The notes under the pieces are model-generated. The model had not been told where the DNA came from, did no database searches, and saw only the letters and a list, made by a program, of their open reading frames with translations. From Synergistaceae bacterium (GTDB taxonomy: Bacteria > Synergistota > Synergistia > Synergistales > Synergistaceae), in the NCBI GenBank assembly GCA_031269245.1, contig JAISZL010000091.1, forward strand, positions 1-34,181: DNA of 34,181 bases. Direction: 5' to 3'. The translations under genes were made by a program, and so were the position numbers. This document shows positions 8,299 through 34,181 of this stretch, piece after piece (positions within the stretch are counted from its first letter, which is position 1; each line of letters starts with the position of its first letter).

Positions 8299-10983
8299 AT
8301 GTTCAAAGGCGTGCTCAAGGCCTTGGGGCTGGACCCCAACGATAGAATTGTCTCGAGGTACAGGAATACCGCATCCGACATAGGCCTTTTGGAGAAAGAG
8401 GTTCAGCGACTCTCGGACGAGGAACTTAAGAAGTCATCGGATCTTTTCAATGGCAGACTTGCGGAGGGGGAGTCGCTTGATGACATACTGCCGGAGGTTT
8501 TCGCCAGGGTGAGGGAGGTTTCGACCCGCACGCTGGGCCTGCGGCACTTTGACGAGCAGATAATAGGCGGCGTGGCGCTGCACGAGCGCAAGATAGCGGA
8601 GATGAAGACCGGCGAGGGAAAGACTCTCGTTGCGACGCTCGCTGTGGCTCTGAACGCCATGGATGGTTTGGGCGTGCACGTCATAACGGTCAACGACTAC
8701 CTGGCCCGCCGCGACGCCGAGTGGATGGGGCCGATATATGACGGCATAGGCCTCTCCGTCGGAGTGATCTCGCCCTTCATGGATCAAGCCGAAAGGGCTC
8801 TCGCCTACAGGGCGGACATAACATACGGGACGAACAGCGAGTTCGGCTTTGACTATCTGCGCGACAACATGGCGCACTCACTTGCGTCGCAGGTTCAGCG
8901 CGGGCACAACTTCTGCATCGTTGACGAGGTGGACTCCATCTTGATCGACGAAGCGAGAACCCCCCTCATCATATCCGGGCCGTCCGAGGACAACATAGAG
9001 CCGTACAAGCGGGCGGACTCCGTGGCTCGCTCCCTGCGCAAGGGGACGGATTACGAGATAGACGAGAAGGAACGCAACGTGGCCCTGACTGAGGAGGGGA
9101 TCGCGCACTGCGAGCGCCTCTTGAACCTGCCGGAGCTCTTCACCGATTACGCGAACACCGAGCTTGCCCACAAGATAACTCAGAGCCTCAAGGCCCATAA
9201 CCTCTTCCAGCGCGATATACACTACGTCGTGAAGGAGGGTGAGATAGTGATAGTAGACGAGTTCACGGGGCGCCTCATGATAGGCCGCCGCTACTCCGAG
9301 GGGTTGCACCAGGCCATAGAGGCGAAGGAGCGCGTTCAAATAGGCCGCGAAAATCAGACCTTGGCGACCATAACGCTTCAGAATTATTTCAGGATGTACA
9401 AAAAACTGTCGGGCATGACTGGCACTGCGCTGACCGAGGCCGAGGAGTTCAAGGAGATTTACGGGCTCGATGTGCTGACGATACCCACCCATCTTCCCAT
9501 GATAAGGGTAGACCACGCCGACGTAATATACCGCACGAAGCAGGAGAAGTTCGCGGCTGCGGCCGGCGAGGTCGAGGAAAGCCATAAGAGGGGCCAGCCA
9601 GTCCTGGTCGGCACGTCGTCGATAGAGAATTCGGAGAAGATGAGCCGGTTGCTCAAGGCAAAGCGGGTACCGCACAACGTGCTGAACGCCAAGGTGCACG
9701 ACAAGGAGGCCGCGATCGTGGCGCAGGCGGGCCGATACGGCGCCGTCACCGTGGCAACCAATATGGCCGGGCGAGGCACTGACATAGTGCTGGGAGGCAA
9801 CGCCGAGTTTATGGCGCGCGAGGAGTCGTCCAAGCGCGGCATGGAGCACGGGTCGCCGGAGTACGGTGCGTTGCTGGGGGGCTTCAAGGCGCAGTGCTCC
9901 GCCGAACACGAGCGCGTGGTCGAACTCGGTGGACTCAGGATAGTCGGGGTCGAGCGGCACGAATCGCGGAGGATAGACAACCAGTTGAGGGGCCGCTCCG
10001 GCAGACAGGGAGATCCCGGAGAGAGCCGCTTCTACGTGGCCTTGGAGGACGACCTGCTGAGACTGTTCGGCGGCGAGCGCGTCCAGAGCATAATGACCAA
10101 GCTGGGCATGGAGGAGGGGGAGTCGATAGAGCACTCCCTGCTCACTAAAACCATTGAGGGCGCGCAGAAGAAGGTCGAGGCGATGCACTTCGACATAAGA
10201 AAACAGCTCCTATCCTATGACAACGTCATGAATCAGCAGCGCGAGGCCGTCTACAAGGAGAGGGCGGCGATACTCGGCGATCCCGGCATTATAGAGCGCA
10301 CGCGCGGCATAATGGACGACACCCTTGCCTCTGTTGCGGAGGGCGCGTTCGCAAATTCCCAGGAGCCGGAGATCCACGCCGCGAAAACCCGCCTCAAGGC
10401 GCTCTTCTGGCCGGGGCTGGAGAGATGTATGGACGGCGTCGAGATGCAGGAGGATGTTCCAGCGGCTCTTGAGAAGATGCGCGCGGAATTGGGGGCGCGT
10501 TTCGAAAGAAAGGTAGTGGAGCTTGGAGAGGAGACAGCGTCCCGTCTATTTCGCTTCGTCCTTCTTCAGGTTCTGGACGCGAGCTGGAGGGAGCACCTTC
10601 TGAGCATGGACGAGATGCGCCGAGGCATTGGTTTGCGCGCCATAGGGCAGAAGGACCCTCTCCTCGAATATCAATTCGAGTCGTATAACCTCTTTCAGCA
10701 AACACTCCAGGGGGTGAGGGAGAAGGTCACGGAGTATGCGTTGAGGGTGGCCGTCGTGTCCAGGGATGGAGAGGTGTCGCAAAGGCGAGGGGCGCGCGAG
10801 GGGCGAGACATGCTGCTGCCGGGGTCTCGCGCCGCCTCTGGAGAGGACGCTGGTGAACGGCGCACGCAGCCGGTGCATCGCGGCCCGAAAATAGGAAGAA
10901 ACGACCCATGCCCATGCGGCAGCGGGAAGAAGTACAAGCACTGTTGCGGCAGGTCGGAAGGCTCGCCGCGGCAGGAGCGCTGA
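8299..10983 (+). CDS. secA: Preprotein translocase ATPase SecA
   Basis: SecA of 894 aa is the cytoplasmic motor that pushes unfolded preproteins through SecYEG. Visible parts include NBD1 with Walker A MKTGEGKT (about 101-108) and the DEVDSILIDEARTPLIISG segment (about 208-226). These are followed by the preprotein cross-linking region, NBD2 with TNMAGRGTDIVLGG and GLRIVGVERHESRRIDNQLRGR, the helical scaffold/wing region, and a C-terminal SEC-C zinc motif. In that motif CPCGSGKKYKHCC (about 870-882) binds SecB or ribosomes in relatives. The length is typical. The ATG at 8299 follows GGAGG at 8283-8287; an upstream ATG at 8288 is out of frame. SecA delivers the Sec-dependent substrates that the T2SS in this window would then carry across the outer membrane. 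Confidence 0.98.
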   Translation: MFKGVLKALGLDPNDRIVSRYRNTASDIGLLEKEVQRLSDEELKKSSDLFNGRLAEGESLDDILPEVFARVREVSTRTLGLRHFDEQIIGGVALHERKIAEMKTGEGKTLVATLAVALNAMDGLGVHVITVNDYLARRDAEWMGPIYDGIGLSVGVISPFMDQAERALAYRADITYGTNSEFGFDYLRDNMAHSLASQVQRGHNFCIVDEVDSILIDEARTPLIISGPSEDNIEPYKRADSVARSLRKGTDYEIDEKERNVALTEEGIAHCERLLNLPELFTDYANTELAHKITQSLKAHNLFQRDIHYVVKEGEIVIVDEFTGRLMIGRRYSEGLHQAIEAKERVQIGRENQTLATITLQNYFRMYKKLSGMTGTALTEAEEFKEIYGLDVLTIPTHLPMIRVDHADVIYRTKQEKFAAAAGEVEESHKRGQPVLVGTSSIENSEKMSRLLKAKRVPHNVLNAKVHDKEAAIVAQAGRYGAVTVATNMAGRGTDIVLGGNAEFMAREESSKRGMEHGSPEYGALLGGFKAQCSAEHERVVELGGLRIVGVERHESRRIDNQLRGRSGRQGDPGESRFYVALEDDLLRLFGGERVQSIMTKLGMEEGESIEHSLLTKTIEGAQKKVEAMHFDIRKQLLSYDNVMNQQREAVYKERAAILGDPGIIERTRGIMDDTLASVAEGAFANSQEPEIHAAKTRLKALFWPGLERCMDGVEMQEDVPAALEKMRAELGARFERKVVELGEETASRLFRFVLLQVLDASWREHLLSMDEMRRGIGLRAIGQKDPLLEYQFESYNLFQQTLQGVREKVTEYALRVAVVSRDGEVSQRRGAREGRDMLLPGSRAASGEDAGERRTQPVHRGPKIGRNDPCPCGSGKKYKHCCGRSEGSPRQER

Positions 10984-17590: not shown

Positions 17591-17592
17591 CT

Positions 17593-18945: not shown

Positions 18946-18987
18946 GATGTAATTATAAGCCGGGTGTGTTATATTTTTTTGCGGTCT

Positions 18988-19001
18988 TGTATATATATAC
19001 A
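18988..19001. repeat. 14-bp perfect AT palindrome upstream of parB
   Basis: TGTATATATATACA is a perfect inverted repeat in the 105-nt AT-rich gap between dnaB and parB, about 50 nt before the parB start. It could be an operator or simply part of an AT-rich promoter; no good -35/-10 pair could be fixed. It is not a parS or Noc-binding sequence. Confidence 0.45.
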
Positions 19002-19050
19002 CTGCTTACTCGCAAAAAATGACCTAAAGTAAGAGCTGGGAGGCGTTGTC

Positions 19051-20325: not shown

Positions 20326-22259
20326 CACCGGCGTTTTCAGGCGATAGAAGGAATAAAAAGGCGGGAAGGTATAAGAGATCTGGATATGTAAAAAAAACGT
20401 TTGAAGAGAATGTTTTTTTTGTTCAAAGATGGGTTTTGTACGTCGCGTTCTTTATCTCATTTTCGTTGCCGAACTTGGTCTTCTCCGGCAAGTATTGGTT
20501 CGACACCCTGCATCTGATGAAATGGTTCGTGACAATGGTTCCGGTGGGAGCGCTCGCGCTTTTCGCAGGGACATGCGCGGCGGTGTTCGGCGCGAAGCGC
20601 ATGAATTTCAAACTCGACCCCTTCGGCGCTCTCTGGTTGCTGTTGCTCCTGCTGGTGACGGTGCAGCCGCTTTTTATCGGGTTGTCGTCCATCTCGACAT
20701 ACGCCAAGGAGTGGTTTTACTTCGCCGCGCTCTTCGCGGTCTACATCCTCGCCTACAATCTGTGGCGCGACGGCAGGTTTCACAGGGTTCTCCTGTGGGG
20801 GAGCAGCGTAAACGCCGCGGTCAACGTGCTGTTCGCTGAAATACTTATCAGAGGCAGCAACGGCGGAGTCCCCTTCATCATGGACGTCCCCGGGAATTAC
20901 ATAGGCAATACCGCGCAGCAGGAGATGTTTGGGCTTTGGATGGCAATGGCCATATTGAACTCGTTCTTCCTGCACATCCACTACGCCGGGGAATGGAGGA
21001 GCGCCTCCAACGAAAACCCTGAGCCGGACCTGGGCCGGATGACGGCGTCCAGTCGTTTTGGCGGGGTCGCTTCGCGGTTGCTTCTGTTCGCGAATTTGTT
21101 CCTTCTCTCTGTGAACGCATGGGGATTGTGGAATTCTACCACCAGGGGCGCCATACTGTCGCTTTTGGTCGCGATAGCGGTACTGATAGTATGTTTCTGG
21201 AGAAACGGTGAGAAGTTGGAGCTCAGGCATTCGCTGATCCTCTCCGGGGTGGTTGCCGTGCTCCTCGTCGTTGTCCTGGGCGCCAGTGCGCTCTTTGGGG
21301 TTGGAAGGGCCGCGTCGCTGATAAGCAAGGTCGCGGATATGCTGCAGAACACAGGGACCTTCGGCGGGAGGATAAGCATCTGGAGGACCAGCATGGAAGT
21401 TTACCGCAAGGAGCCTCTGACCGGCGTTGGCCTTGGGCAGTACAAGTGGCACTTCCTTGACGGGCAGAGGCTGCTTTACAAAAATCACCCCGAGCTGGCG
21501 GGCGACCCCGGATACAACTGGCAGTACACGTACTGGGCGCACAGCGAATATCTGCAGTGGCTGTGCGAAACGGGGCTGATAGGCGCGATCATGCTCCTCC
21601 TGATGGCACTGTGGTGGCTTTATGAATTTTCGAGCGCGCTTGTCAGGCGAAAACGTCTTCCCCCCGAGGCGTTGTGGGGGTGCTCCATGCTCTTCCTGCT
21701 GTGGTTCGATGCCATATTCAGCAGGCCGTTTCACAGGATAGAGAACTCCGTGTGGATGGCCTTGGCGTTTGCGCTGGCCAACAGGCATGTACTGCCCGGC
21801 AGGACGAAGTGGGCAGACATAGACAGCGAGTTCCTTTATAGGTGCTTCGGAGGCCTAGTGGCTGTCGCGGCGGTGGCCGGTTTCGTCTTCATCGGCGGCG
21901 GCATGGCGGGGGACAAGATGATATACAGGGCTTTAGTGCTGCCGAGCGGTGTGCAGACAAAGTTCCATCTTCTGAACAGTGCGGAGCGCTATCTCATGTC
22001 CCGCGACGACGCCCGCGAGCAGATGGCCGAGCTCAATATCGCGATCGGGTCGCAGCAGCGGGACATGAAGGCGTATTCGAAGGGATTGAACGACCTGTAC
22101 GTGGCGTTCAGCAGGCGTCCCACCGCCAAACTGCTGTTTGAGGTGATAGATCACGCGAGGAAGCTGAATGATATGCAAATATTGCAGAGAGCCGCGGTAT
22201 ACCTGCACCCGGACTCGCTGAGTGTCAGAGAGCCGCCGGATGAAGCCGCGTCCAAATAA
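20322..22259 (+). CDS. O-antigen ligase/O-oligosaccharyltransferase family (Wzy_C) membrane protein
   Basis: This 645-aa inner-membrane protein has about twelve hydrophobic segments and a soluble C-terminal region (about 530-645). The Wzy_C signature is present: STTRGAILSLLVAI (about 271), then GGRISIWRTS (about 347), LTGVGLGQY, and HSEYLQWLCETGLIG (about 406-420) with the conserved His. Such proteins transfer undecaprenyl-linked glycan to lipid A core (WaaL) or to proteins (PglL/TfpO). Sequence alone does not choose between them. Its start overlaps the parB stop, and its end overlaps or abuts gspJ, making it the first member of the T2SS operon. That suggests, without proving it, a protein substrate linked to secretion. 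Confidence 0.82.
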   Translation: MTPAFSGDRRNKKAGRYKRSGYVKKTFEENVFFVQRWVLYVAFFISFSLPNLVFSGKYWFDTLHLMKWFVTMVPVGALALFAGTCAAVFGAKRMNFKLDPFGALWLLLLLLVTVQPLFIGLSSISTYAKEWFYFAALFAVYILAYNLWRDGRFHRVLLWGSSVNAAVNVLFAEILIRGSNGGVPFIMDVPGNYIGNTAQQEMFGLWMAMAILNSFFLHIHYAGEWRSASNENPEPDLGRMTASSRFGGVASRLLLFANLFLLSVNAWGLWNSTTRGAILSLLVAIAVLIVCFWRNGEKLELRHSLILSGVVAVLLVVVLGASALFGVGRAASLISKVADMLQNTGTFGGRISIWRTSMEVYRKEPLTGVGLGQYKWHFLDGQRLLYKNHPELAGDPGYNWQYTYWAHSEYLQWLCETGLIGAIMLLLMALWWLYEFSSALVRRKRLPPEALWGCSMLFLLWFDAIFSRPFHRIENSVWMALAFALANRHVLPGRTKWADIDSEFLYRCFGGLVAVAAVAGFVFIGGGMAGDKMIYRALVLPSGVQTKFHLLNSAERYLMSRDDAREQMAELNIAIGSQQRDMKAYSKGLNDLYVAFSRRPTAKLLFEVIDHARKLNDMQILQRAAVYLHPDSLSVREPPDEAASK

Positions 22260-22854
22260 AAAACGGGCCTTCACGCTAGTCGAGATAATGCTCGCGCTGG
22301 GCATCGGAGGCATGATACTGGCGCTGGGCATCGCCCCGCTTATGTTCACGGCGAGGACGATATCGCAGACGCGCGCGAATTTCGCTTCGGCAAACAGGGA
22401 ACGCGCGGCAGTGAACAGGATATTTCAGGACGTCAGGGAGTCCGTGGGACTCAACGTGCAGTCCCCCGTTTTCATCGCGCGCCGCGACAGCCTTGAGGGG
22501 GGCTCGGACAATATGCTGATGGTGTGGACCATCGCGCCGGCCTACGCCGGCGCGTCGATGGGGAGCGTTGTTTATGGGGTACCGCGGAGTACGGTTTTGG
22601 GCGGCGATTTCGAGGAGGGCGTTTACAGGTGGGTTCTGTCCGACGACACGGTCCCCGGTTCTCTCGGCGACGAGGATCTGGAACCCGAGACCGCCCGGCT
22701 TCTGCTCGGCGGAGTTAAAGGCGTTTCGTTCCACGCCCTGAGCGGCTCCTCGTGGACGGACAGTTACAACGGCTCTCTGCCGAGGGCGCTCCGGGTGACG
22801 TTTCAATACGAGGATGGGGACGTCTCTTATGAGGATTTGCTGCCGAACTTCTAG
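22240..22854 (+). CDS. gspJ: Type II secretion minor pseudopilin GspJ-like
   Basis: This 204-aa protein has a prepilin-type leader: basic MKPRPNKKRA, then FTLVEIMLALGIGGMILALGI with Glu5 of the mature form. The residue before the cleavage site is Ala, not the usual Gly. The body (RIFQDVRESVGL and the later beta-rich part) resembles GspJ, a tip minor pseudopilin. I prefer the ATG at 22240, which gives a short basic leader, to the GTG at 22222 further inside the previous gene; neither has a strong Shine-Dalgarno. Its end overlaps gspK. GspJ rather than GspH or GspI is inferred from length and position next to gspK. Confidence 0.78.
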   Translation: MKPRPNKKRAFTLVEIMLALGIGGMILALGIAPLMFTARTISQTRANFASANRERAAVNRIFQDVRESVGLNVQSPVFIARRDSLEGGSDNMLMVWTIAPAYAGASMGSVVYGVPRSTVLGGDFEEGVYRWVLSDDTVPGSLGDEDLEPETARLLLGGVKGVSFHALSGSSWTDSYNGSLPRALRVTFQYEDGDVSYEDLLPNF

Positions 22855-23749
22855 GGGCGGGTTCATTCTCGTCACGGTCATGATGATCTCGACGATCTTT
22901 CTGGGAGCGGCCGTCTCGTATGCGCTCTACGCGAGGCGGGAGATGAGGAGGGCCTCTGAGGAGGAGTTTCTCATGGCGTCGCGCGGTTTGGCGATGATAG
23001 CGTGCCAGGAGGTGTCACAGTGGATCGCCGGCGACAAGAACGAATACGACTCCAGGCACGAGTTGCTTTACGCCCCGAATTTTCCGCTGGAGATGTTTTA
23101 CGGGGATTGGCTGGTGAGCGTCAAGATTGATCCGCAGGATGACCGCATCTCCATCAACGATATATTTTTGCCGGATGGCGTCACTATAAAAAACGAGTAC
23201 GCTTACCCGTGGCAGCGGATATGGAGGGCGCTGGCCAGCGACGAGACCGCCGTGCTGCTTCAGGACTATCTCGACAAGGACGCGATCCCCCGTCCCGGAG
23301 GCAGGGAGGAGTACTACTTCCCAAATCGCAGGATCAGCGACCTCAGCGAGTTGAGGCGCCTCCCCGAGATGACGTCGGACATGTTATACGGCAGGGGTGC
23401 GGACGGCGCGAGGGCCGATACTTTTTTCACGGTGTACGGCGGCGGAAAAATCAACATAAATCTGGCGCCTGTGGCGGTCCTGGCGGTCCTGGATCCGGAT
23501 TTGGGGGCCGACATAGCCGAGTCGATCGCTGAGCATCGCATGGAGAACGACATAAAGAGCGCTAAGGATTTGGCGAAAATACCGGGGTTCCCGCAGGCCG
23601 TCACCGCAAGGCTCAATAATGTGATAGGCTACAAGAGCGGTTATTTCATGGTTCACCTGAAGGTTCAGCTGGACATGAGGGAGCGCAACTTCGACGTCAT
23701 GCTGACGCGTGGCGATGGCAAATGTCAGATCGTTTATTGGAGAGAGTAA
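22829..23749 (+). CDS. gspK: Type II secretion minor pseudopilin GspK
   Basis: This 306-aa GspK is the large pseudopilin at the tip of the pseudopilus. The leader MRICCRTSRGG is followed by FILVTVMMISTIFLGAAVSYAL. Glu5 is missing (Thr here), which is characteristic of GspK. The SAM-like region holds ISDLSELRRLPEMT and FFTVYGGGKININLAPVAVL, a GspK hallmark. The ATG at 22829 has GGGGA about 8 nt upstream; an ATG at 22814 lacks spacing to a Shine-Dalgarno. The gene overlaps gspJ by 26 nt. Confidence 0.9.
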   Translation: MRICCRTSRGGFILVTVMMISTIFLGAAVSYALYARREMRRASEEEFLMASRGLAMIACQEVSQWIAGDKNEYDSRHELLYAPNFPLEMFYGDWLVSVKIDPQDDRISINDIFLPDGVTIKNEYAYPWQRIWRALASDETAVLLQDYLDKDAIPRPGGREEYYFPNRRISDLSELRRLPEMTSDMLYGRGADGARADTFFTVYGGGKININLAPVAVLAVLDPDLGADIAESIAEHRMENDIKSAKDLAKIPGFPQAVTARLNNVIGYKSGYFMVHLKVQLDMRERNFDVMLTRGDGKCQIVYWRE

Positions 23750-23758
23750 ACGCGAGCG

Positions 23759-24916
23759 ATGAAAAAAAAATCAGAGTCGCATAAATTCATACGCCTGGCC
23801 GGAGATGACGGACTCATCGCATCTTGCGCCGGCAGTAAGGTATTGCTTCACTCGTTCAGGAATATCTCTGTCCACCCGTTCTCGTTCCCCTTCTCCGGGA
23901 TGTCTCGGGTGAGGGAGGCGCTGAGGATTAAGTTCAAACCTCTGCTGGGGGACGCGGCTTCAAATATAGCCATCATCCCGCTCTTAGTCCGCAGCGAAAA
24001 GAAAATGTCGTCAGGTTGCGTATATCTGCTCTTTGGCGACGAGATGGCCGCCATAGACGAGGCCATGTCCCGCGTGGGGGGAGATTATCTCGTCTGGCCC
24101 GTGCAGATGGCGTTTGCCGCGGAGGTGGACGGCGACGGTTTGATAATATGGTCGGACGACGAGACCATCGCCGCCATGTGGCTCGAGGATTGGACGCCCA
24201 AGTTCTACAAGAGCGCGGACAGGAACGGGAGCAGCGTCGAGGACGAGAAGCGGGGCGCCCTGGAATACATCGGGCAGAACGGCGGCCGGGTCGAGCGCGT
24301 CCTGTTGCTGGATGACAGGGATGTGACCGGCGACGACGTTCAGAGATGCGGCGCGTATACCCTCGCGTCGTGCGGCGCGTATGTCTCCCTAGATCTGTCG
24401 AGCAAGGGAACGAACCTGCTGGAGCGCAGGGAGCGAGTCATCGGGGCCATGTCGCGCGCGGCGAAAGCCGCCATAGCCTCGGGGCTCTTCTTCCTTGCCG
24501 TCTCGTGCGGGGTGCTTTTTTATCACTCCTCGCAGCTCTCATCCAGCGCCTCGAACGCGGAGTCGGTTTACGAAGCGTCCTTCGGCGAGCGGTCGATGCA
24601 GCCGCTGAGCTCCGCTCAGGCGAAACTCCGCACCGTCAGGTTGAGCGAGGCAGACAACTCCCTCAACGCCATAATGAAGGATGTAACCGAAGTTTGGGAC
24701 AAACTGGGGACATCCCCCGACATAACGATAGAGACCCTGAGCTACGGGTCCGAGGCCACGAACATCCTGGGCACGGCGAAGAGCAACGAGGCCATACAGC
24801 GGATGCGCTCCCTACTGGAGGAACACGGATACTCGCCCAGGATGGCCAATATCCAGACGGTCCCCGGGGGAGACATGCGCTTTAACATGAGCATATCGAG
24901 GGGAGGGCCCGACTGA
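23759..24916 (+). CDS. gspL: Type II secretion inner-membrane assembly protein GspL-like
   Basis: This 385-aa protein has the GspL layout. An N-terminal cytoplasmic actin-like domain (about 1-230) would bind GspE, one transmembrane helix follows (about 237-258, AAIASGLFFLAVSCGVLFYH), and a periplasmic ferredoxin-like domain closes it (about 265-385). Similarity to known GspL is low, so the call rests on architecture and on lying between gspK and gspM. The stop overlaps the gspM start by 1 nt (TGATG). Confidence 0.78.
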   Translation: MKKKSESHKFIRLAGDDGLIASCAGSKVLLHSFRNISVHPFSFPFSGMSRVREALRIKFKPLLGDAASNIAIIPLLVRSEKKMSSGCVYLLFGDEMAAIDEAMSRVGGDYLVWPVQMAFAAEVDGDGLIIWSDDETIAAMWLEDWTPKFYKSADRNGSSVEDEKRGALEYIGQNGGRVERVLLLDDRDVTGDDVQRCGAYTLASCGAYVSLDLSSKGTNLLERRERVIGAMSRAAKAAIASGLFFLAVSCGVLFYHSSQLSSSASNAESVYEASFGERSMQPLSSAQAKLRTVRLSEADNSLNAIMKDVTEVWDKLGTSPDITIETLSYGSEATNILGTAKSNEAIQRMRSLLEEHGYSPRMANIQTVPGGDMRFNMSISRGGPD

Positions 24917-25392
24917 TGATGAGCCTGAACGAGATCATGGAGGCCCCGGAATCTCGCAGGGCGATGCGCATGCTGGCGCTCGCCGCCGCGATATGGATAG
25001 CGTGCTTCGCCGTTGCCGTCAGGATAACGGCGGTCAGCAGAAGCCTCGCCGCGGCGGTCAGCGCGAGCGGACGGATTGTCGACTCCGGGATGCGGTACAG
25101 AGCCTACCCCAGAACCGAGCAGGCACAGACCGCGAGGAAGGTCGAGGATCCTCTCGGCGCGTTGACGCAGATAGTCGACGCACTTTCGCTTAAGGACAGG
25201 ATGCAGCAACTCCAGTCGAACGCCTCGGGCGTGCTCATCCAGCTGGAGCGCCTCTATGGGCAGGAGCTGCGGGAGTTCCTGTCCACGGTCGAGAGCAGGG
25301 GGCTTCAGATAAGGACCGCGGAGATAAGGGCCCTTCCCTCCGGCGGAGGAAGGGTCTTGAGCGCGACGTTCACGCTGGAGCAGAGTCGATGA
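24916..25392 (+). CDS. gspM: Type II secretion protein GspM-like
   Basis: This 158-aa bitopic protein has a short cytoplasmic N-terminus, a transmembrane helix at about 17-38 and a helical then ferredoxin-like periplasmic part. GspM partners GspL in the inner-membrane platform. The assignment comes from size, topology and position after gspL. GGAGGG lies about 9 nt before the ATG. Its stop overlaps the next start (ATGA). Confidence 0.72.
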   Translation: MMSLNEIMEAPESRRAMRMLALAAAIWIACFAVAVRITAVSRSLAAAVSASGRIVDSGMRYRAYPRTEQAQTARKVEDPLGALTQIVDALSLKDRMQQLQSNASGVLIQLERLYGQELREFLSTVESRGLQIRTAEIRALPSGGGRVLSATFTLEQSR

Positions 25393-26003
25393 GATACCTG
25401 AAGTTTTTCGCCTACGCCGCGGCGGCGATGGCGGCCCTTGTCGCCGGGGTGTTTTTTTTCGCGCCGTGGGACATGGGAGGAATGTACGTCCTCGACTCCA
25501 TAAGGCTCGAAGCGGCCAAGAGGGGCGTATACATATCTTACGGCGGCATGAGGGCGGAGGGGACGATATTCCCGGTTTATCGCATAGACAGCGTGGACAT
25601 AGAGAGTCCCGTATCAAAAATGACCGTCTCGGACGTGAAGGTCAAGACGCGGTTCCTCGCGAGCCTGCTGTCGGGGAGGGCGTCCTTCGCGGCGGAATTT
25701 GGCGGAACGGACATACTCGTAATCCCGAACAACAGAGTGAACCTGCAAAGAGGAGAGGCCGATATCTCCGCGGCCGGCGACGCGATATCGGTCTCGGGGG
25801 CTGACATAGAGGGAGAGATATCGGCAACAGGCGATATCGTCTACGACATCGCTCAAAGGAGGGTCACGTACAGCACGATCGCTATCAAAGCCCCCCCCCA
25901 CATAAACGCGCTGCTGGGCAACCCCCTGCTGAGCCGTTACCTGGAGTCCGCAAACCCCGGAGAATGGAGGATAAAAAGCAATGCGTCTCAAAATCGGCCT
26001 TAA
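25389..26003 (+). CDS. gspN: Type II secretion protein GspN-like
   Basis: This 204-aa protein has an N-terminal membrane anchor (about 5-25) directly followed by FAPWDMGGMYVLDSIRLEAAKRG and a beta-rich repeat-like periplasmic domain. The APW motif and overall pattern are those of GspN, an optional T2SS subunit of unclear role. The start overlaps gspM by 4 nt, and the end overlaps gspC by 23 nt. Confidence 0.75.
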   Translation: MRYLKFFAYAAAAMAALVAGVFFFAPWDMGGMYVLDSIRLEAAKRGVYISYGGMRAEGTIFPVYRIDSVDIESPVSKMTVSDVKVKTRFLASLLSGRASFAAEFGGTDILVIPNNRVNLQRGEADISAAGDAISVSGADIEGEISATGDIVYDIAQRRVTYSTIAIKAPPHINALLGNPLLSRYLESANPGEWRIKSNASQNRP

Positions 26004-26952
26004 GAACTTGAGCCGCCTGAGAATCAGCGGGGCGGGATTCTTGAGCCCGCTCGCGTCGTTCGGGAGGTCGCGGTTCCCATTGGTGATCGCGTCGATGCTG
26101 GCGTGTTCGTTTCTCCTCTGCTCGTTCGCGGAGGGCATCCTCTCCTCTCGGGCGATGGCCCTGCAGGAGGAGCTCGCCGCCGCCGCGGCACGCCGTCAGC
26201 CCAGCATACTTTACGCCGGAGGGGCACGGAGCTCAAAGTCTGCGACTATGAAGTTCGACTCGTTCAACGTGCCCGATAAGAACCCCGCGGATGAGGCCGA
26301 TAAAACAGAGGAGCCCGAGCCCGATGCGCCGCCGAAGCCGATAAAGTCGTTCAGGCTCGTGGGGACGCTGCCGTCCGTCGGAGCCTGGGTGGCCTCGGAT
26401 AAAGCCACGGAGTTCGTCCTGAGACGGCAGGAGTTCAACGGATACGCGTTGGAGAGCGTCGAGCCGCAGATGGTCATCTTCACGAGGGACGGCGAGATAT
26501 TCCCGCTCTACATGGTGTATTCCGCCGCGTCCGCGAAACCGGCCGCCGCGCAGCCGGCACAGCGCGGCGCGCAGCCGAAAGAAGCGGCGCCGTCTCCCCA
26601 GGCCGGTCAGGCAGGGCGGGAAGGGGTGATGCTGGCGACCTTCAACGGCGACGACGGGACCGTCACGAGGGAGTTGCTCAACGACCTTCTGATGAACCCA
26701 TACGCCGAGCTGTCGAAGATGCGGCTCATCCCGACCGAATCGGGCATGAGGATAGCCGCCATCCGTTCGGATGCCATGTTCGCCAAACTGGGCATGAAGA
26801 GGGGCGACGTCATCACCGGCATCAATGGGATCGCCATCACCGACGTCGGCAACTTCGCCAACGTCATAAGCTCCCTCCTGACCGGAGCCAGGCTCGATTT
26901 TCAGGCGACGAGGGACGGTAGTCAGGGGCAGTTGGGCTACGCGGTGAAATGA
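25981..26952 (+). CDS. gspC: Type II secretion inner-membrane protein GspC
   Basis: This 323-aa GspC links the inner-membrane platform with the secretin. It has one transmembrane helix (about 32-50), a Pro/Glu-rich linker and the homology region (about 118-180, starting SFRLVGTLPSVGAWV). A second Ala/Pro/Gln-rich linker follows, then a C-terminal PDZ domain (about 235-320) with MKRGDVITGINGIAI. The HR region contacts the secretin N0 domain, and the PDZ domain is involved in substrate choice in relatives. GGAGG precedes the ATG, which lies inside gspN. Its stop overlaps the gspI start (ATGA). Confidence 0.87.
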   Translation: MRLKIGLKNLSRLRISGAGFLSPLASFGRSRFPLVIASMLACSFLLCSFAEGILSSRAMALQEELAAAAARRQPSILYAGGARSSKSATMKFDSFNVPDKNPADEADKTEEPEPDAPPKPIKSFRLVGTLPSVGAWVASDKATEFVLRRQEFNGYALESVEPQMVIFTRDGEIFPLYMVYSAASAKPAAAQPAQRGAQPKEAAPSPQAGQAGREGVMLATFNGDDGTVTRELLNDLLMNPYAELSKMRLIPTESGMRIAAIRSDAMFAKLGMKRGDVITGINGIAITDVGNFANVISSLLTGARLDFQATRDGSQGQLGYAVK

Positions 26953-27377
26953 GAGGATTTACGCTTATAGAGACGCTGGTGTCCCTGCTGGTGCTGGCCC
27001 TGGTCGTCACGGCATCGCTGAAGCTGGTGGCCCTCTCCCAGAGGGGGCTTGCCGAGGTCAGGGAGAAGGAGGCCATGCTGAACGCCGCCGGCAAACTTCA
27101 GATCGAGATAGCCTCCGACCCGCTCAACATATTCGGCGTGAGCCGGGATGTCGCGTGGAGTGTGCACGAGATGTCCAGCCCGCTCTGGATCGACGAGGCG
27201 ATAGACATAAGGGCACTGGCTTTTGGGCAGAACATGTCGCGCGATCTCGCCCTGCTTAAGGGTAGGGAGCAGAAGTGGAGGGAGCTCGATCTCACGAGAA
27301 ACGGCAGGACTCTGACTCTCTTTTTGCCACCCGCGTCGGAGATGCCCTCCCAGCCGGCGTCGAGCGACGCGCAATGA
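26949..27377 (+). CDS. gspI: Type II secretion minor pseudopilin GspI-like
   Basis: This 142-aa prepilin-type protein has an extremely short leader. MRG precedes FTLIETLVSLLVLALVVTASL with Glu5 intact, so cleavage after Gly3 leaves almost no basic leader. The early part, KLVALSQRGLAEVREKEAMLNAAGKLQIEI, resembles GspI/PilV-type minor pseudopilins. Placement before gspD instead of beside gspJ is unusual. Translation is coupled to gspC by a 4-nt overlap. Confidence 0.75.
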   Translation: MRGFTLIETLVSLLVLALVVTASLKLVALSQRGLAEVREKEAMLNAAGKLQIEIASDPLNIFGVSRDVAWSVHEMSSPLWIDEAIDIRALAFGQNMSRDLALLKGREQKWRELDLTRNGRTLTLFLPPASEMPSQPASSDAQ

Positions 27378-27533: not shown

Positions 27534-29594
27534 ATGATCGCAAGGAAGGCAATTTCATCAGCGCTTTTTCTTTTTGTTATTTTCACGGCCGCGGCGTTAC
27601 CCCCGTCCGCGTCGTTCGCGGCCGAGCCCGCCGCGGCCCCCGACCCCGAGCAGAGCGAGCGGAACCTGATAACGGCCGCTAAGTCCATGAGGTCCACGGG
27701 GAAGGTTCAGCTCAACTTCAAGGACCTCGAGATGATTCAGTTCATTCGATTCATGTCGGAGCTGCTGGGGGAGAACATAGTGGTCAACCCCGGCGTGAAG
27801 GGGACCGTATCGGTCGTCTCTCCCAAGGTGATCTCGATATCGGAGGCGCGCCTCGTGATGCTCTCGGTGCTGGAGATGAACGGGCTCTCGCTTCAGGGCA
27901 TGGGCGGCTACTCCAAGGTGATGCCGATCAACGCCGGCCCGTCGACGAATCAGGACGTGTTCAGGGGCTCCGAGGGCGTGACCCCTAGCGAACAGCTCAC
28001 GGTGCAGATAGTGCCCCTGCGGTACGTCAAGTCCGGCTTCGTCGTCGACCCCCTCAAATTGGGAGTCCAGGGTTTGAACATAGCCCCCATATCCGGCGGG
28101 ACCGCCGTTCTCCTCTCCGGAAAGGCCGTTCTTCTGAATAGGGCGGTCAACATCATAAAGGCGCTGGATGTCCCGGACAGCGTGCGCGGGATAAAAACGG
28201 TCGCGCTGAAGTACACGTCGGCGAAGCTCGTAGAGGGTCACGTCAACGCCATAGCGAAGGACTCGACATCGAGGCTCGCCGGCCTCATCGCGATAGGGGA
28301 CGAGCGCAGCGGTAAGGTGATACTGGTCGGGGCACGGGATGCCACGCTGGAGGCCGAGAGGCTTATGATCGACCTCGACGTGCCCGCCACCGTCACCAAC
28401 TTCCACGTGTACAAGCTGCAAAACGCCGACGCCAAGACCGTCGCCGAGCAGCTCAGCCAGATCATCTCCGTGGCCGCGAGGCTGCAGCCGGCACAGAGGG
28501 GCGGCGAAGGAGGGGCTCAGGCGATGCCGACGAGCGTGGTCCCGGACCTTCCGACGAACAGCATCATACTGACCGCCACACAGGAGCAGTACGGCGCCAT
28601 AAAGGACATCCTGGAGGAGCTCGACGTTCAGCCGAAGCAGGTCCTCCTGCGCGGCCTCATAGCGGAGGTGAACCTCACCAAGCTCAACAGCGCCGGTATC
28701 GACTGGTCGGCCTGGGGCGGCGACGCGGCCACCGACCTCCTGATAGGCGGGAACGTCCAGTTGGGCGCGACGTCGGTGCCCGCGCAGTTCATGCAGTGGT
28801 TCACCGAGATGACCAGGACCGAGAAGGTTAACTACGACGAAAACGGGAACGCCGTGACGACGCGAAACATCAAGGGGATGGGGCTCGTCTACGCGTACAT
28901 CAAGATGCTGAACAACTTCAACGCCATCAACGTACTGTCGATGCCCCGCCTGATGTGCACGGACAACATGGAGAGCGCCCTTCAGGTCGGGCAGGTCATA
29001 CCGCAGCTCAGGGGGCAGACGTCAGACATAAGCAACCCGTCGGCCGTGCAGAACAGCTTCGAGTACAAGGACACCGGCCTCATCCTCAAGGTGACGCCGC
29101 ACATCAGGAGCGGCAACCTCGTGGCACTCGACATAGAGCAGACAATAGAGGAGGTATTGAGCACGTCGGGTTCCACGACGCCGGTGACGTCGAAGCGCCT
29201 CATCAAGACGAACGTCCTGGTGGCGAACGACGAGACCATCATCCTCGGGGGGCTGATCCGCGAGGTGGAGAAGACGCTCAAGAACCGGGTGCCAGGCATA
29301 TCGTACGTGCCGATCGTCGGGAACCTCTTCACGTCGAGCGAGCGTCAGCGCGAGAAGGTGGATCTCATGGTCTTTCTCACCCCGAAGATAATCGAGACGC
29401 CCCAGCAGGCCACAGACGCGACCATAGAGGTCACCACCGGCGGCGACGGCCTCAGCATCGGAGAGACCAAGACCATCATGAACTACTACGAGGAGTTCAT
29501 GAGGTCGAACAGGGAGGGCGGCGTCAGCCAGAACACCATGCGCTTAACCGCTCCGGCTTCGGATGACAGCGCAGAGACCGGCGGAACGAAGTAA
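27534..29594 (+). CDS. gspD: Type II secretion outer-membrane secretin GspD
   Basis: This 686-aa secretin forms the outer-membrane channel. It has a signal peptide (MIARKAISSALFLFVIFTAA, then ASFAA) and an N0 domain (LNFKDLEMIQFIRFMSEL). N1-N3 repeats follow (VPLRYV, then VALKYTSAKLVEGHV, then YKLQNADAKTVAEQL). The C-terminal secretin core has QVLLRGLIAEV, TDNMESALQVGQVIPQL and the hallmark VPGISYVPIVGNLF. The about 75-residue tail may contact a pilotin. The start is the ATG at 27534, with AGGAG 8 nt upstream and an immediate signal peptide; a longer in-frame reading from 27477 would bury the signal peptide and has no Shine-Dalgarno. Strong evidence that the host has an outer membrane. Confidence 0.96.
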   Translation: MIARKAISSALFLFVIFTAAALPPSASFAAEPAAAPDPEQSERNLITAAKSMRSTGKVQLNFKDLEMIQFIRFMSELLGENIVVNPGVKGTVSVVSPKVISISEARLVMLSVLEMNGLSLQGMGGYSKVMPINAGPSTNQDVFRGSEGVTPSEQLTVQIVPLRYVKSGFVVDPLKLGVQGLNIAPISGGTAVLLSGKAVLLNRAVNIIKALDVPDSVRGIKTVALKYTSAKLVEGHVNAIAKDSTSRLAGLIAIGDERSGKVILVGARDATLEAERLMIDLDVPATVTNFHVYKLQNADAKTVAEQLSQIISVAARLQPAQRGGEGGAQAMPTSVVPDLPTNSIILTATQEQYGAIKDILEELDVQPKQVLLRGLIAEVNLTKLNSAGIDWSAWGGDAATDLLIGGNVQLGATSVPAQFMQWFTEMTRTEKVNYDENGNAVTTRNIKGMGLVYAYIKMLNNFNAINVLSMPRLMCTDNMESALQVGQVIPQLRGQTSDISNPSAVQNSFEYKDTGLILKVTPHIRSGNLVALDIEQTIEEVLSTSGSTTPVTSKRLIKTNVLVANDETIILGGLIREVEKTLKNRVPGISYVPIVGNLFTSSERQREKVDLMVFLTPKIIETPQQATDATIEVTTGGDGLSIGETKTIMNYYEEFMRSNREGGVSQNTMRLTAPASDDSAETGGTK

Positions 29595-29601
29595 AAACAT
29601 C

Positions 29602-31116
29602 ATGAGCGAATCATCTGCGGCGAACGAGAGGAGCGCGCCAAAAAAACTTCCGGCGCCGGAGCGGGTGCTGGAGCTCATACCGGGTGGCGTGAGCGTGGAC
29701 GCGTTGCGGGAGAAGGGGATAATCCCCATAGATGTGCGCGGTTCGGCACTGGTGGTGGCGTCGTCGTCGGTTTCGTCGATGCCGGACGCGCAGATACTCG
29801 CCATGTCCTCGGGCAGGACCGCCCTGTTGGAGATATACCCGGAGGAGCAGATCGCGGTCCTGATCAGGACGCTCTACGACCTGAAGAGCGGCGTGGCCCA
29901 GGACACGCTGAACGCGATAGAGTCCGTCGACGACCTGTCGCAGTTGGCGCGCCAGGAGGTATTGAGCGACACTGTGGATGCCCCTGTCATCAAACTGGTC
30001 AACGGAGTTCTCCTGGAGGCCGTCAAGGAGCGGGCGACCGACATACACCTGGAGCCGTTCGAGGACAAACTTCTGGTGCGCTATCGGATCGACGGCGTGC
30101 TGAACGACCGCTACGAGCTGACGAAGGGGCACCAGTCGCCGGTCACGAGCCGCATAAAGGTCATGGCGAAGATGGACATAGCGGAGCGTTTCATCCCGCA
30201 GGACGGAAGGATCGGCATAGCGCTTGGCGACAGGGCCGTCGACATAAGGGTGAGCTCGCTCCCGACTCAGCACGGCGAGCGGATAGTAATGAGACTGCTG
30301 GACAAGGCACGAGGCCTTCTCACGTTAGAGGACCTGGGCATGGCCGAGGAGGAGAGGCTGAAGCTGGACTCGCTCATCCGCAGTCCGCACGGCATGATAC
30401 TCCTCACCGGCCCCACCGGCTCCGGCAAGAGCACATCGCTCTACGCGATACTCCAGGCCCTGGCCCGCCCCGAGGTGAACATAATCACGGTCGAGGATCC
30501 GATAGAGTACGACCTTCCCGGCGTGGGGCAGGTGCAGGTGAACGAGAAGGCGGGCGTCACGTTCTCGAGCGCGCTCCGCTCCATACTGCGGCAGGACCCC
30601 GATATCATAATGATCGGCGAGATGAGGGACTTCGACACGGCTCACATAGGCATTCAATCCTCGCTCACGGGGCACCTCGTCCTCTCGACCCTTCACACGA
30701 ACGACTCTGTGAGCGCCGTGTCGCGGTTGCTAGACATGGGAATCGAGCCGTATCTCATAGCGGGCTCGCTCCTTGGCGTCGTGGCGCAGAGGCTCGTGCG
30801 CAGGATATGCCCGAGCTGCAAGAGGCGCGTCGATCCGCCCGCCACCATGAAAAAATACGGCCTCGCCTCCGCGTTTCGAGGGGAGGGGTGCGAACGGTGC
30901 GGCAGGACGGGATATCGCGGCAGGTTCGGCCTGTACGAGCAGTTCGACATAACGCCGGAGGCGTCGGAAGCTATCTCGTCCGGCGCGACGCTCGCCGCGC
31001 TCAGACAGCTCGCCAGGGAAAGCGGCATGAGGACGCTCCTGGAGCTCGGGATAGCCGCCGTCGCATCGGGCGGCACCACCCCGGAGGAGATGCTTAGGGT
31101 GGTAGGTGAGATTTAA
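29602..31116 (+). CDS. gspE: Type II secretion ATPase GspE
   Basis: This 504-aa cytoplasmic ATPase powers pseudopilus assembly. The N1E domain spans about 20-120 and is followed by the ATPase core. That core has Walker A GPTGSGKST (about 270-278), the Asp box, Walker B IIMIGEMRD (about 336) and the His box HLVLSTLHTND. The zinc motif is complete: CPSC near 402 and CERC near 429. I used the ATG at 29602, just after the gspD stop. An in-frame ATG at 29563 inside gspD is possible; both have weak Shine-Dalgarno sequences. The stop abuts gspF. Confidence 0.95.
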   Translation: MSESSAANERSAPKKLPAPERVLELIPGGVSVDALREKGIIPIDVRGSALVVASSSVSSMPDAQILAMSSGRTALLEIYPEEQIAVLIRTLYDLKSGVAQDTLNAIESVDDLSQLARQEVLSDTVDAPVIKLVNGVLLEAVKERATDIHLEPFEDKLLVRYRIDGVLNDRYELTKGHQSPVTSRIKVMAKMDIAERFIPQDGRIGIALGDRAVDIRVSSLPTQHGERIVMRLLDKARGLLTLEDLGMAEEERLKLDSLIRSPHGMILLTGPTGSGKSTSLYAILQALARPEVNIITVEDPIEYDLPGVGQVQVNEKAGVTFSSALRSILRQDPDIIMIGEMRDFDTAHIGIQSSLTGHLVLSTLHTNDSVSAVSRLLDMGIEPYLIAGSLLGVVAQRLVRRICPSCKRRVDPPATMKKYGLASAFRGEGCERCGRTGYRGRFGLYEQFDITPEASEAISSGATLAALRQLARESGMRTLLELGIAAVASGGTTPEEMLRVVGEI

Positions 31117-32277
31117 ATGCCCATCTTCAAGGTCAAGGCCTACGACTCAAAGGGCGATCTGAAGAGCCTGCGCAAGGATTCCTCCACCGAGGAGGAGTTG
31201 CTGCGCGCTCTGTCGCTGGAGGGTTACGTGCCGATCTCGGTCGAGGCCGAAAAGGCGAAAAAATCCCCCGACAGGGCGCCCAAGACGCTGAGGCTCGCCG
31301 ACCAGCACCTGTTCTGCACGATGCTGTCGGCGTTTTTACAGAGCGGGCTGTCCATGACGGAGGTCTTGAGGCTTCTTCAGAGGCAGACGCGCGACAAGCG
31401 GCTTCAGCCGATCTTCTCGGAGCTGCGCGAGTCGGTGGAGTCCGGCAGGTCCCTCGCTCAGTCCATGTCACAGCAGGGGGTCTTCAGGGACTCGCTGGTG
31501 GGCATGGTGGAGGCGGGCGAGCGCTCGTCGTCGCTCCCCGGAGTGCTCGACAAGGCCTCGGCACTGCTCCACGGGGAGATAGCCCTCAGGCGGCGCATTC
31601 AAACGGCCCTGACCTACCCGCTGCTGATGATGGTGGTGGGGTGTTTCGTCGCGGCGTTTCTGCTCGTTTACGTCGTACCGCAACTCACCGGCATCGTAAC
31701 CCAGTCGGGCCAGGCGCTCCCTCTCGCCACCAGGATGCTTCTGGCTCTCTCGTCCGCCGTCAAGGTCGGCGGGATTCCGGTGCTGATCGCGCTGCTTTTC
31801 GCGTATGTCCGCATGAAGAGGAAGGGCAGGAGGATTTCCCTCCCGCTCTTCAGCGAGACGAGAAACCTTCTCACCATATCCCTGCTCTTCTCCCAGCTCT
31901 CCACCCTGATAAAGTCGGGTGTCCCTCTAGTGCAGGCGCTGGAGATGTCCGGTACGCTCGATCCCATGCCTGGGAGGGTGAAGTTCCTGGCCGACGAGGT
32001 GCGGAAGGGCTATCGATTTTCGCAGAGTCTGGAGCGCCACGGCTCCTTCAGCGAGGACGTGGTTTCCATAGTCCGTATAGGGGAGGTCGGAGGCAATCTC
32101 CCCGACTGCCTGGACAGGATAGCGACGAACTCGTGGGAGTTCGCGCAGGCGTCCATGGAGAAGTGGTCGACGCTCGCCGAGCCGTTGATCATAATCGTGC
32201 TCGGCACGTTCGTGGGATTCGTCGTGATGGCGGTGCTCCTGCCCATATTCAGCTTGTCGGACCTCGCGGGTATATAA
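31117..32277 (+). CDS. gspF: Type II secretion inner-membrane platform protein GspF
   Basis: This 386-aa GspF is the polytopic base of the platform. It carries two T2SSF domains (about 65-190 and 265-385), each with an amphipathic helical part followed by membrane helices (about 165-195, 220-235, 350-378). Typical signatures are AFLQSGLSMTEVLRLL, VEAGERSSSLPGVLDKAS, YPLLMMVVG and VRIGEVGGNLPDCLDRIA. The start ATG directly follows the gspE stop (TAAATG). It is the last gene of the T2SS operon. No gspG, the major pseudopilin that usually follows gspF, is present downstream. Confidence 0.95.
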   Translation: MPIFKVKAYDSKGDLKSLRKDSSTEEELLRALSLEGYVPISVEAEKAKKSPDRAPKTLRLADQHLFCTMLSAFLQSGLSMTEVLRLLQRQTRDKRLQPIFSELRESVESGRSLAQSMSQQGVFRDSLVGMVEAGERSSSLPGVLDKASALLHGEIALRRRIQTALTYPLLMMVVGCFVAAFLLVYVVPQLTGIVTQSGQALPLATRMLLALSSAVKVGGIPVLIALLFAYVRMKRKGRRISLPLFSETRNLLTISLLFSQLSTLIKSGVPLVQALEMSGTLDPMPGRVKFLADEVRKGYRFSQSLERHGSFSEDVVSIVRIGEVGGNLPDCLDRIATNSWEFAQASMEKWSTLAEPLIIIVLGTFVGFVVMAVLLPIFSLSDLAGI

Positions 32278-32333
32278 TACCGCTTCGCGGCCAGCAGGCT
32301 GTTTTTAATGGTATTTCGCCTTGATCTGCCTTA

Positions 32334-32373
32334 GGAAGCGCTAATTGAAAATTTCAATTCAATCGGCGCTTCC
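32334..32373. terminator. Long hairpin between convergent gspF and the Synergist-CTERM gene
   Basis: GGAAGCGC (32334-32341) pairs perfectly with GCGCTTCC (32366-32373), enclosing a second nested palindrome (AATTGAAA and TTTCAATT, 32343-32359). A T-rich tract, AGTTTTCTT, follows on the plus strand, fitting a terminator for the T2SS operon. On the minus strand it starts about 17 nt after the small gene stop, but no T tract follows. It is probably a shared terminator. Confidence 0.6.
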
Positions 32374-32389
32374 CCAGTTTTCTTAATCT

Positions 32390-32788
32390 CTATCCGCGTT
32401 TCCTCCCCAAAAAAGAAGCTAAGAGGAGCGGCAGACCCATCAGGGGAGATGAGCCAAATCCGGCGTTGCAGCCGCTTCCTCCGCCGCTGTCGCCGCCATC
32501 GCTGCCGCCTTTGGGGGCGACATTGAACATGACGCCGCCCCCATATTCTGCTGTGGAGCTGTCCTCCTGATTTTCCGCGCCAACGAACCAGCCCGAAGCA
32601 TGGTCAAAAGTGAAGCTCACAAAACCATCGCCGTCAGTCTTAGCTTCCCGATATCCCTCATTGACCCAGCCCTCTCCAGCCCCCTCTGGCCGATTTACCG
32701 ACACTTGGAATCTATTCACAAATGCCGTGACTTCGTGACAAGATTGCAAAATGATTGATATAATACAAAAAAGAAGGGCGGTGCTCAT
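32390..32788 (-). CDS. Small secreted protein with Synergist-CTERM sorting signal
   Basis: This 132-aa protein has an N-terminal hydrophobic signal (about 3-16) ending in LQSC, which resembles a lipobox with an atypical Gln. A short beta-type domain follows (about 25-90; DGDGFVSFTFDHASGWFVGAE), then a Gly/Ser/Asp-rich stretch. The end is CNAGFG, a hydrophobic segment (about 116-127) and RKRG. That end is a Synergist-CTERM signal, thought to be recognised by an unidentified processing enzyme near the Cys. Start uncertainty is real: no Shine-Dalgarno precedes the ATG, and an in-frame stop lies six codons upstream. It could be a shortened descendant of a larger surface protein. It is convergent with the T2SS operon. 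Confidence 0.78.
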   Translation of the reverse strand: MSTALLFCIISIILQSCHEVTAFVNRFQVSVNRPEGAGEGWVNEGYREAKTDGDGFVSFTFDHASGWFVGAENQEDSSTAEYGGGVMFNVAPKGGSDGGDSGGGSGCNAGFGSSPLMGLPLLLASFLGRKRG

Positions 32789-32879: not shown

Positions 32880-33635
32880 CTATTCGGCGGTGATGATGCG
32901 GCGTGCGTCCGAGTAGTCGGCCGCGATCTTTTGTCCGGGCTTCGTCACCAGGAACCTCTCGTCGTCCCATCTGCCCTCGATGAAGTCCCTCAGCATCCCG
33001 CTGTCTCCGCGCACGACGTCGAAGGATGCCCCCAGGTAGGCCGCCGCGTCCTCCGTGTATTTCTCGTACTGGGGGAAGTCCAGCTCGTCCCACTTTATAT
33101 AGGCGCACCTCTTGTAGCTCTCCGGCCACTCCTGCTCAATCAGGTATTTCGCGCTCTCCTCGCCGTAGCGCTCCGTGTAGATGACGGACAGCGCCTCTAC
33201 GGACTCCTTCGATGGCATGAACGACGAATTCTCTATCCAGGATGCGTTGTACCAGAACGTGCCGCCTTGAGAGTTCAAGGAATTTTGGTAAGCCTCTTGG
33301 GAGCCGAGGAAGAGGGTTATGCAGTCGTGCGCCCTGGGAGCCACGAGGGGGTACTTTTTCGAGCAGAGGCCCACAAGGCCGTTAGAGCACAGCCCATAAG
33401 CGAGGAGTATCGCGTCGAAGTCGCGCTCCTTGTAGTCGCAGCGAGATTTGTAAGTGTACACGTCATTCCCGGCGTCTATCTTCTCCAGCTCCGCCCGAAG
33501 CGTTTTTTGGAGCAGCTCCGGCGTGTTGTGCAACCCCTGGCGGATATACGTGACGTCCAGGTAGTTTTCGCAGTTGGCGGCAATCAGCGATATCTCCCTG
33601 AATAACACCTTGCACGCGATAACTTTCAACCTCAT
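32880..33635 (-). CDS. DUF1638 domain protein
   Basis: This 251-aa cytoplasmic protein matches DUF1638. It begins MRLKVIACKVLFREI and shows YIRQGLHNTPELLQ, AILLAYGLCSNGLVGL and APRAHDCITLFLGSQEAY. Conserved Cys and His residues suggest metal or cofactor binding, and relatives are often near corrinoid methyltransferase genes. No such gene is here. I start at 33635, where the family homology begins and AGGCAGGG lies about 9 nt upstream. A longer in-frame reading from 33698 would overlap the promoter and adds only a basic, unrelated stretch. Function unknown. Confidence 0.85.
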   Translation of the reverse strand: MRLKVIACKVLFREISLIAANCENYLDVTYIRQGLHNTPELLQKTLRAELEKIDAGNDVYTYKSRCDYKERDFDAILLAYGLCSNGLVGLCSKKYPLVAPRAHDCITLFLGSQEAYQNSLNSQGGTFWYNASWIENSSFMPSKESVEALSVIYTERYGEESAKYLIEQEWPESYKRCAYIKWDELDFPQYEKYTEDAAAYLGASFDVVRGDSGMLRDFIEGRWDDERFLVTKPGQKIAADYSDARRIITAE

Positions 33636-33697
33636 CGACGCACGCCCTGCCTTTCTCCGCTTCAAAAAAACTCTGACTGCGAGTCTGTATTGAGGCA

Positions 33698-33726
33698 ATT
33701 ATACTTTGGCCTATTAAAAAAATCAA
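33698..33726 (-). promoter_or_regulatory. Near-consensus promoter of the DUF1638 gene
   Basis: On the minus strand TTGATT (33726-33721), a 17-nt spacer and a perfect TATAAT (33703-33698) form one of the best promoters in the window. The leader is about 55 nt. It contains a small GACT-CGC-AGTC hairpin followed within a few bases by seven T residues, a possible weak attenuator. Confidence 0.8.
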
Positions 33727-33800: not shown

Positions 33801-34181
33801 TGATACGGGTCGTCAACACTTTTTCGGGCAGAAAGTTAAGCAGCCAGATTTGTACTACTACGATACCAATGTTTCAACCACTCCAGCGGGCTAAGATAGC
33901 CCAGGCGTTTTTGGGCTCGCGGGGTGTTGTAAAAACCGTTGATGTAGGCCGCCATAGCTTGGCGGGCCTGCTCTCTGGTCTTGAAATGTGCCCAGTGTAC
34001 CGCCTCTTTTTTCAGGTTGGTGAAGAAACTCTCGCTCCAGGCATTGTCTCCGGGTTTACCTACACGAGAGAAACTCTGCCTGAACCCGAGGCGCGAGAGA
34101 AGCTGTTTTACCGCCTCCGACGTGTACTGACTCCCACAGTCGCTGTGGAATATGCGGCCGGCAATTCCACTATTAATTCGC
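33801..34181 (-). mobile_element. 3' end of an IS3-family insertion sequence
   Basis: The element runs off the right edge; only its transposase 3' end and probable right terminus are visible. The terminus is placed tentatively at 33801, where the plus strand reads TGATACGGGTCGTCAACACT about 35 nt beyond the transposase stop, fitting the TG...CA ends of IS3 elements. The other inverted repeat and target duplication are outside the window. Confidence 0.7.
33836..34181 (-). CDS. IS3-family transposase OrfB, C-terminal part
   Basis: The last 114 codons of a DDE transposase (rve integrase fold) are present; the start lies beyond the window. FHSDCGSQYTSE carries the second catalytic Asp, and DNAWSESFF carries the catalytic Glu. 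Exactly 35 residues separate Asp and Glu, the D(35)E spacing of IS3/retroviral integrases. The end NTPRAQKRLGYLSPLEWL is typical of IS3 OrfB. The stop TAA is at 33838-33836. No frameshift occurs in the visible part, so it may be intact. Production as an OrfAB fusion by -1 frameshifting is usual for the family but cannot be seen here. Confidence 0.93.
   Translation of the reverse strand, partial: RINSGIAGRIFHSDCGSQYTSEAVKQLLSRLGFRQSFSRVGKPGDNAWSESFFTNLKKEAVHWAHFKTREQARQAMAAYINGFYNTPRAQKRLGYLSPLEWLKHWYRSSTNLAA

Follow-up and report, generated by a model that had tools for sequence, protein, structure and literature searches.

Does a protein with a Synergist-CTERM tail, encoded immediately beyond the last gene of a type II secretion system (T2SS), point to a C-terminal sorting pathway in Synergistota that is coupled to this exporter? 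The locus lies in a window of 34,181 nucleotides, the whole stretch of DNA analysed here, which is one entire contig (C20) of a Synergistota genome of 2.34 Mb in 98 contigs (96.7% complete). We consider a coupled pathway the best reading, at a probability of roughly 0.65, on the strength of comparisons across the phylum.

Profile searches of the window recovered a plus-strand operon in the order gspK-L-M-N-C-pseudopilin-D-E-F (Table 1), in agreement with the T2SS named in the earlier note. The GspD secretin, GspC, GspE, GspF, GspL, GspM and pseudopilins are all encoded at this single locus, and the T2SS of the window is intact. The gspK gene has the same operon position in relatives, and no copy of gspG was recognised within the window by the profile searches.

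Table 1. Genes of the window discussed in the text, with profile matches.
Feature	Position	Strand	Match
secA (Sec export ATPase; general housekeeping gene)	8299..10983	+	NF009538, 1140.7 bits (cut-off 814)
gspK (minor pseudopilin)	22814..23749	+	NF037980, 85 bits (below cut-off 130)
gspL	23759..24916	+	NF041617 T2SS_L_SYNERG, 280.8 bits (cut-off 150)
gspM	24916..25392	+	NF041618 T2SS_M_SYNERG, 127.6 bits (cut-off 120)
gspN	25389..26003	+	NF041619 T2SS_N_SYNERG, 98.1 bits (below cut-off 140)
gspC	25981..26952	+	NF041616 T2SS_C_SYNERG, 214.5 bits (cut-off 200)
minor pseudopilin (gspI/H type)	26949..27377	+	TIGR02532 prepilin N-terminus, 21.7 bits (cut-off 16.3)
gspD secretin	27534..29594	+	TIGR02517, 364.1 bits (cut-off 351.35)
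gspE ATPase	29563..31116	+	TIGR02533, 583.6 bits, best match (below cut-off 630)
gspF	31117..32277	+	TIGR02120, 238.7 bits, best match (below cut-off 424)
132-aa ORF, remnant of a secreted DUF4198 protein, truncated at the 5' end, with Synerg-CTERM-type tail	32390..32788	-	

The tagged ORF is convergent with gspF and lies outside the T2SS operon. Its tail, GSGCNAGFGSSPLMGLPLLLASFLGRKRG, has an [SG]GC Cys motif, a hydrophobic helix and a basic end at the extreme C-terminus; it scored 13.0 bits with the Synerg-CTERM model TIGR04564, below the curated cut-off of 22.5, and 14.6 bits with the MYXO-CTERM profile. The resemblance to the Synerg-CTERM family is credible because the same genome contains about 20 dispersed tails of this form, six of them above the TIGR04564 cut-off and all with the Cys. 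Signal-peptide-like N-termini were present in 21/21 tagged ORFs whose 5' end is intact, under a loose rule that also accepts 478/1472 long six-frame ORFs.

The ORF in the window has no such N-terminus, being truncated, whereas its intact relatives have one. Residues 36-132 correspond to residues 247-342 of a relative's 342-aa DUF4198 CTERM protein (52% identity), residues 1-35 do not align to that protein, and a search upstream found no remains of the lost 5' portion. Only positions 179-207 of the 209 in the DUF4198 profile are spanned, homologues are DUF4198 proteins of 330-559 aa with signal-peptide-like starts, and the GC content at third codon positions, 0.43-0.73, falls below the 0.79-0.86 of neighbouring genes. 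The ORF is thus a 5'-truncated remnant: what survives is the final ~97 residues of a secreted DUF4198 protein of ~340 aa. It was rejected as an intact substrate, since the signal peptide and about 240 residues are missing, and the adjacency to gspF in the window is therefore weak evidence. What stands of the earlier description of a Synergist-CTERM protein beyond gspF is a Cys-containing tail at that place; the gene itself is on the opposite strand, scores below the cut-off and is a decayed fragment.

A transposase fragment resembling IS3 by sequence (33836-34180, minus strand) runs off the contig end ~1 kb from the remnant, making a local rearrangement near the truncated gene plausible. Between the two lies a gene for a DUF1638 protein (32880-33698, minus strand; PF07796, 128 bits). 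In G144, a genome of the same genus, a different tagged gene occupies the same place, between gspF and mrtS (L063:11730-12264, minus strand); it has a signal-peptide-like start and is broken by one frameshift before the tail.

The earlier note regarded the processing enzyme for this tag as unidentified, a view that is outdated: curators at NCBIfam had already named a 'Synerg-CTERM system glutamic-type intramembrane protease MrtS' (NF040589). The window's genome encodes one CPBP protein, which belongs to this equivalog family in a profile search, with 213.9 bits (cut-off 130). MrtS contains the CPBP/Rce1 catalytic residues EExxxR, H and HxxxN, and an alignment of 36 sequences showed E95, E96, R100, H128, H164 and N168 to be invariant. 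An AlphaFold2 model (pLDDT 95.4) searched with Foldseek gave SpdC as the top and one good PDB match (TM 0.62, probability 1.00, E 0.056). Models of the myxosortases MrtX, MrtC and MrtP gave 56, 63.6 and 91.4 bits against cut-offs of 180, 195 and 250, placing MrtS in a family separate from MrtX (PMC11980579).

Either a rhomboid- or a CPBP-type protease had been expected to track with the tags, and it is the CPBP-type MrtS that does so. No rhomboid was found in the window's genome, and rhomboids are present in 6/188 Synergistota genomes and absent from 182/188; with this near absence from the phylum, a rhombosortase was rejected as the enzyme cutting the tag. In the deep-branching genomes G002-G005 (families f11 and f12), MrtS-like proteins scored below the cut-off, at 53-100 bits, and some of these genomes also encode a T2SS and carry tails with low TIGR04564 scores.

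Tails, MrtS, GspC and GspD were scored in 188 Synergistota genomes, and a genome was counted as T2SS-positive when it had a clear GspC or GspD, since weak matches to GspD also arise from other secretins. Tags and T2SS occurred together in 132 genomes, tags alone in 8, a T2SS alone in 8 and neither in 40; the corresponding numbers for high-quality genomes were 82, 4, 3 and 27, and tags scored against MrtS in the high-quality set gave 82/4/1/29, Fisher tests of this co-occurrence being ones that ignore phylogeny. When 16 selected genomes were searched more permissively, three that had counted as T2SS-positive and tag-negative proved to have tails, which changed the tag/T2SS table to 84/4/1/27; we retain 82/4/3/27 as the even-handed table, the repeat search having covered only part of the genomes. 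Among single-contig genomes, seven have tags, MrtS and T2SS, five have none and none is mixed, and among genomes of ≤10 contigs the numbers are 11, 10 and 0.

Tags without a T2SS, which would have counted against the proposal, were thus seen in no genome of ≤10 contigs and in 8/188 overall. In these eight, gspC, gspD and gspK are all missing, and most are fragmented or incomplete, with four (G006, G028, G038 and G083) being >90% complete. In G004 an MrtS-like protein and a single weak tail were found but no clear T2SS, and this genome is a possible true exception. Genomes lacking the system fall within four families whose other members possess it (f1, f2, f6 and f7), and judging by family membership, tags, MrtS and T2SS have probably been lost jointly at least four times. 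The suggested check, that tags track with the T2SS and with a membrane protease, was therefore borne out across the phylum, and because the three components are nearly always present or absent together, the data support a T2SS-coupled surface-anchoring pathway like that of myxobacteria.

Gene order provides a second line of evidence. With distance limits chosen after inspection of the data, mrtS lies ≤3.2 kb from the T2SS operon in four genera, where 0.12 would be expected under uniform placement, and it does so in three different arrangements (G144; G130/132/133; G139/140; G007/9/10). Under limits set in the same way, a tagged gene is found <2 kb downstream of gspF in 5/34 genera (G144, G124, G009 together with G007, G017 and G050), against 0.47 expected (P 1.3e-4, or 1.4e-3 without the window's genus). 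Clustering of tagged genes with mrtS was rejected as not clearly above chance, at about 6/60 loci against about 2.6 expected by a rough estimate. This recurrence after gspF, like the frameshifted gene in the related G144, would fit the idea that the window encodes a dedicated T2SS substrate beside its exporter; but the truncation of the window ORF speaks against it, as does the finding that the gspF neighbours of different genera are not orthologous, and we regard it as very unlikely. For the latter reason a single orthologous substrate always following gspF was also rejected.

How the components might act together is suggested by analogy with the MYXO-CTERM (PMC11980579) and GlyGly-CTERM (PMC13393428) systems, both of which are precedents involving a T2SS. 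Tagged proteins would cross the inner membrane by Sec, using their N-terminal signal peptides, and would be held there by the C-terminal helix and basic end. The invariant tag Cys would probably be acylated, and MrtS would cut beside it to take off the helix. The T2SS would then carry the folded protein to the cell surface, with GspN helping lipidated cargo, and the lipid would anchor the protein there. Of the logic proposed in the earlier note, running from Sec through the tail and processing at the Cys to the T2SS, the general scheme gains support from the phylum-wide tracking, while the example put forward for it is the gene remnant.

The gspN gene, located between gspM and gspC, is matched by the NCBIfam T2SS_N_SYNERG model in 34/34 aligned sequences. 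In the PDB, the best folds for its model (pLDDT 93) were the beta-taco proteins LptA and LptC, which the predicted GspN resembles weakly (probability up to 0.97, TM only 0.27-0.36). In Acinetobacter, GspN is required for T2SS transport of lipoproteins and not for that of soluble proteins, and its homologue PulN is required for pullulanase in Klebsiella (PMC12802150). The presence of GspN in the operon is consistent with lipidated cargo. In the export of the lipoproteins PulA and InvL, which likewise uses a T2SS with GspN, the lipid is attached to an N-terminal Cys that follows a lipobox (PMC12802150). In Synergistota a C-terminal Cys would carry it, and the pathway would link GspN to C-terminally lipidated cargo.

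A divergent Lgt-family protein with an invariant GC...GCC motif may be the missing acyltransferase, lipidating the C-terminal Cys of Synerg-CTERM proteins before MrtS cleavage; we offer this only tentatively, together with the possibility that the pathway can be read from one cluster. Such a cluster, in G007 and G009, comprises the Lgt-like gene, mrtS, gspK-L-M-N-C-D-E-F and a gene for a tagged protein. The Lgt-like gene lies between mrtS and gspG in G144. It immediately precedes mrtS in G007, G009 and G010, the two genes overlapping or almost overlapping, and immediately precedes gspK in G130, G132 and G133; these arrangements are repeated in named relatives (L220, L221, L245 and L271). Copies are at L063:13376-14167, L181:3395-4174, L182:3087-3869, L086:17702-18583 and L072:2133-2897, and that of the window's own genome is at L204:1471-2232. 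The latter product scored 79.9 bits with the canonical Lgt model TIGR00544, below the cut-off of 118.9. Relative to a sequence that we take to be that of E. coli Lgt, Arg143, Tyr235 and Arg239 are conserved, His103 is not, and N146 and E151 are replaced by Cys. The family is also present in other phyla, and none was found in the 400 kb searched of the closed, tag-less genome G115. According to the myxosortase work, the acyltransferase has yet to be identified (PMC11980579), and this protein is a concrete candidate for it.

The same protein lends itself to another reading, in which it and GspN serve classical N-terminal T2SS lipoproteins, the tag Cys is unacylated, and MrtS releases proteins by cutting off the helix. 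No other PF01790 protein was found in the genome of the window, so that it may be an ordinary housekeeping Lgt, and outside the arrangements described above its gene is in its usual place, after jag. Against this reading, the protein is encoded beside mrtS or T2SS genes in three lineages, every tail of the window's genome has the Cys, and in Myxococcus cleavage depends on the conserved tag Cys (PMC11980579); we consider this reading rather unlikely. Marginally less probable still, and unlikely in our judgement, is that MrtS processes the tags of proteins that stay in the inner membrane or take another outer-membrane route, with the T2SS serving other cargo and co-occurring because both are traits of larger, polymer-degrading genomes. 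Presence does partly follow genome size, many genomes without all three components being small, and the majority of tagged genes lie away from those of the T2SS. However, some genomes without all three are large (G116-G119, 2.5-2.8 Mb), and mrtS and intact tagged genes adjoin the T2SS in several genera. Genomes without tags or T2SS moreover contain a weaker match to a secretin, probably PilQ of type IV pili, indicating that the tracking does not result from missing data alone.

The sorting pathway coupled to the T2SS, which we prefer, shares with MYXO-CTERM and the myxosortase MrtX a Cys motif, helix and basic end, a CPBP protease, the T2SS and a proposed acylation before cleavage, but experimental proof comes from Myxococcus only (PMC11980579). 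With GlyGly-CTERM and the rhombosortase RssP it shares a tripartite tag, an intramembrane protease and T2SS transport to the surface, differing in that RssP is a rhomboid serine protease and the motif is Gly without Cys (PMC13393428, PMC6219818). A further phylum, with a protease family of its own, would thereby join the scheme of tag, intramembrane protease and T2SS, and Synergistota would gain a testable route for surface proteins.

The pairing of this tag family with this protease family is already named in NCBIfam (TIGR04564, NF040589). MrtS is also reportedly covered by Haft in 2024 (J Bacteriol e00173-23). The coupling to the T2SS in Synergistota and the gene linkage are, as far as we found, unpublished; the literature searched yielded no mention of Synergist-CTERM or Synerg-CTERM, and no experiment on MrtS or on the pathway in any Synergistota. 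Finally, the region ahead of the T2SS operon in the window (16194-22259) contains dnaB, a ParB/Noc homologue and two long unnamed ORFs, and the operon may lie near the replication origin.
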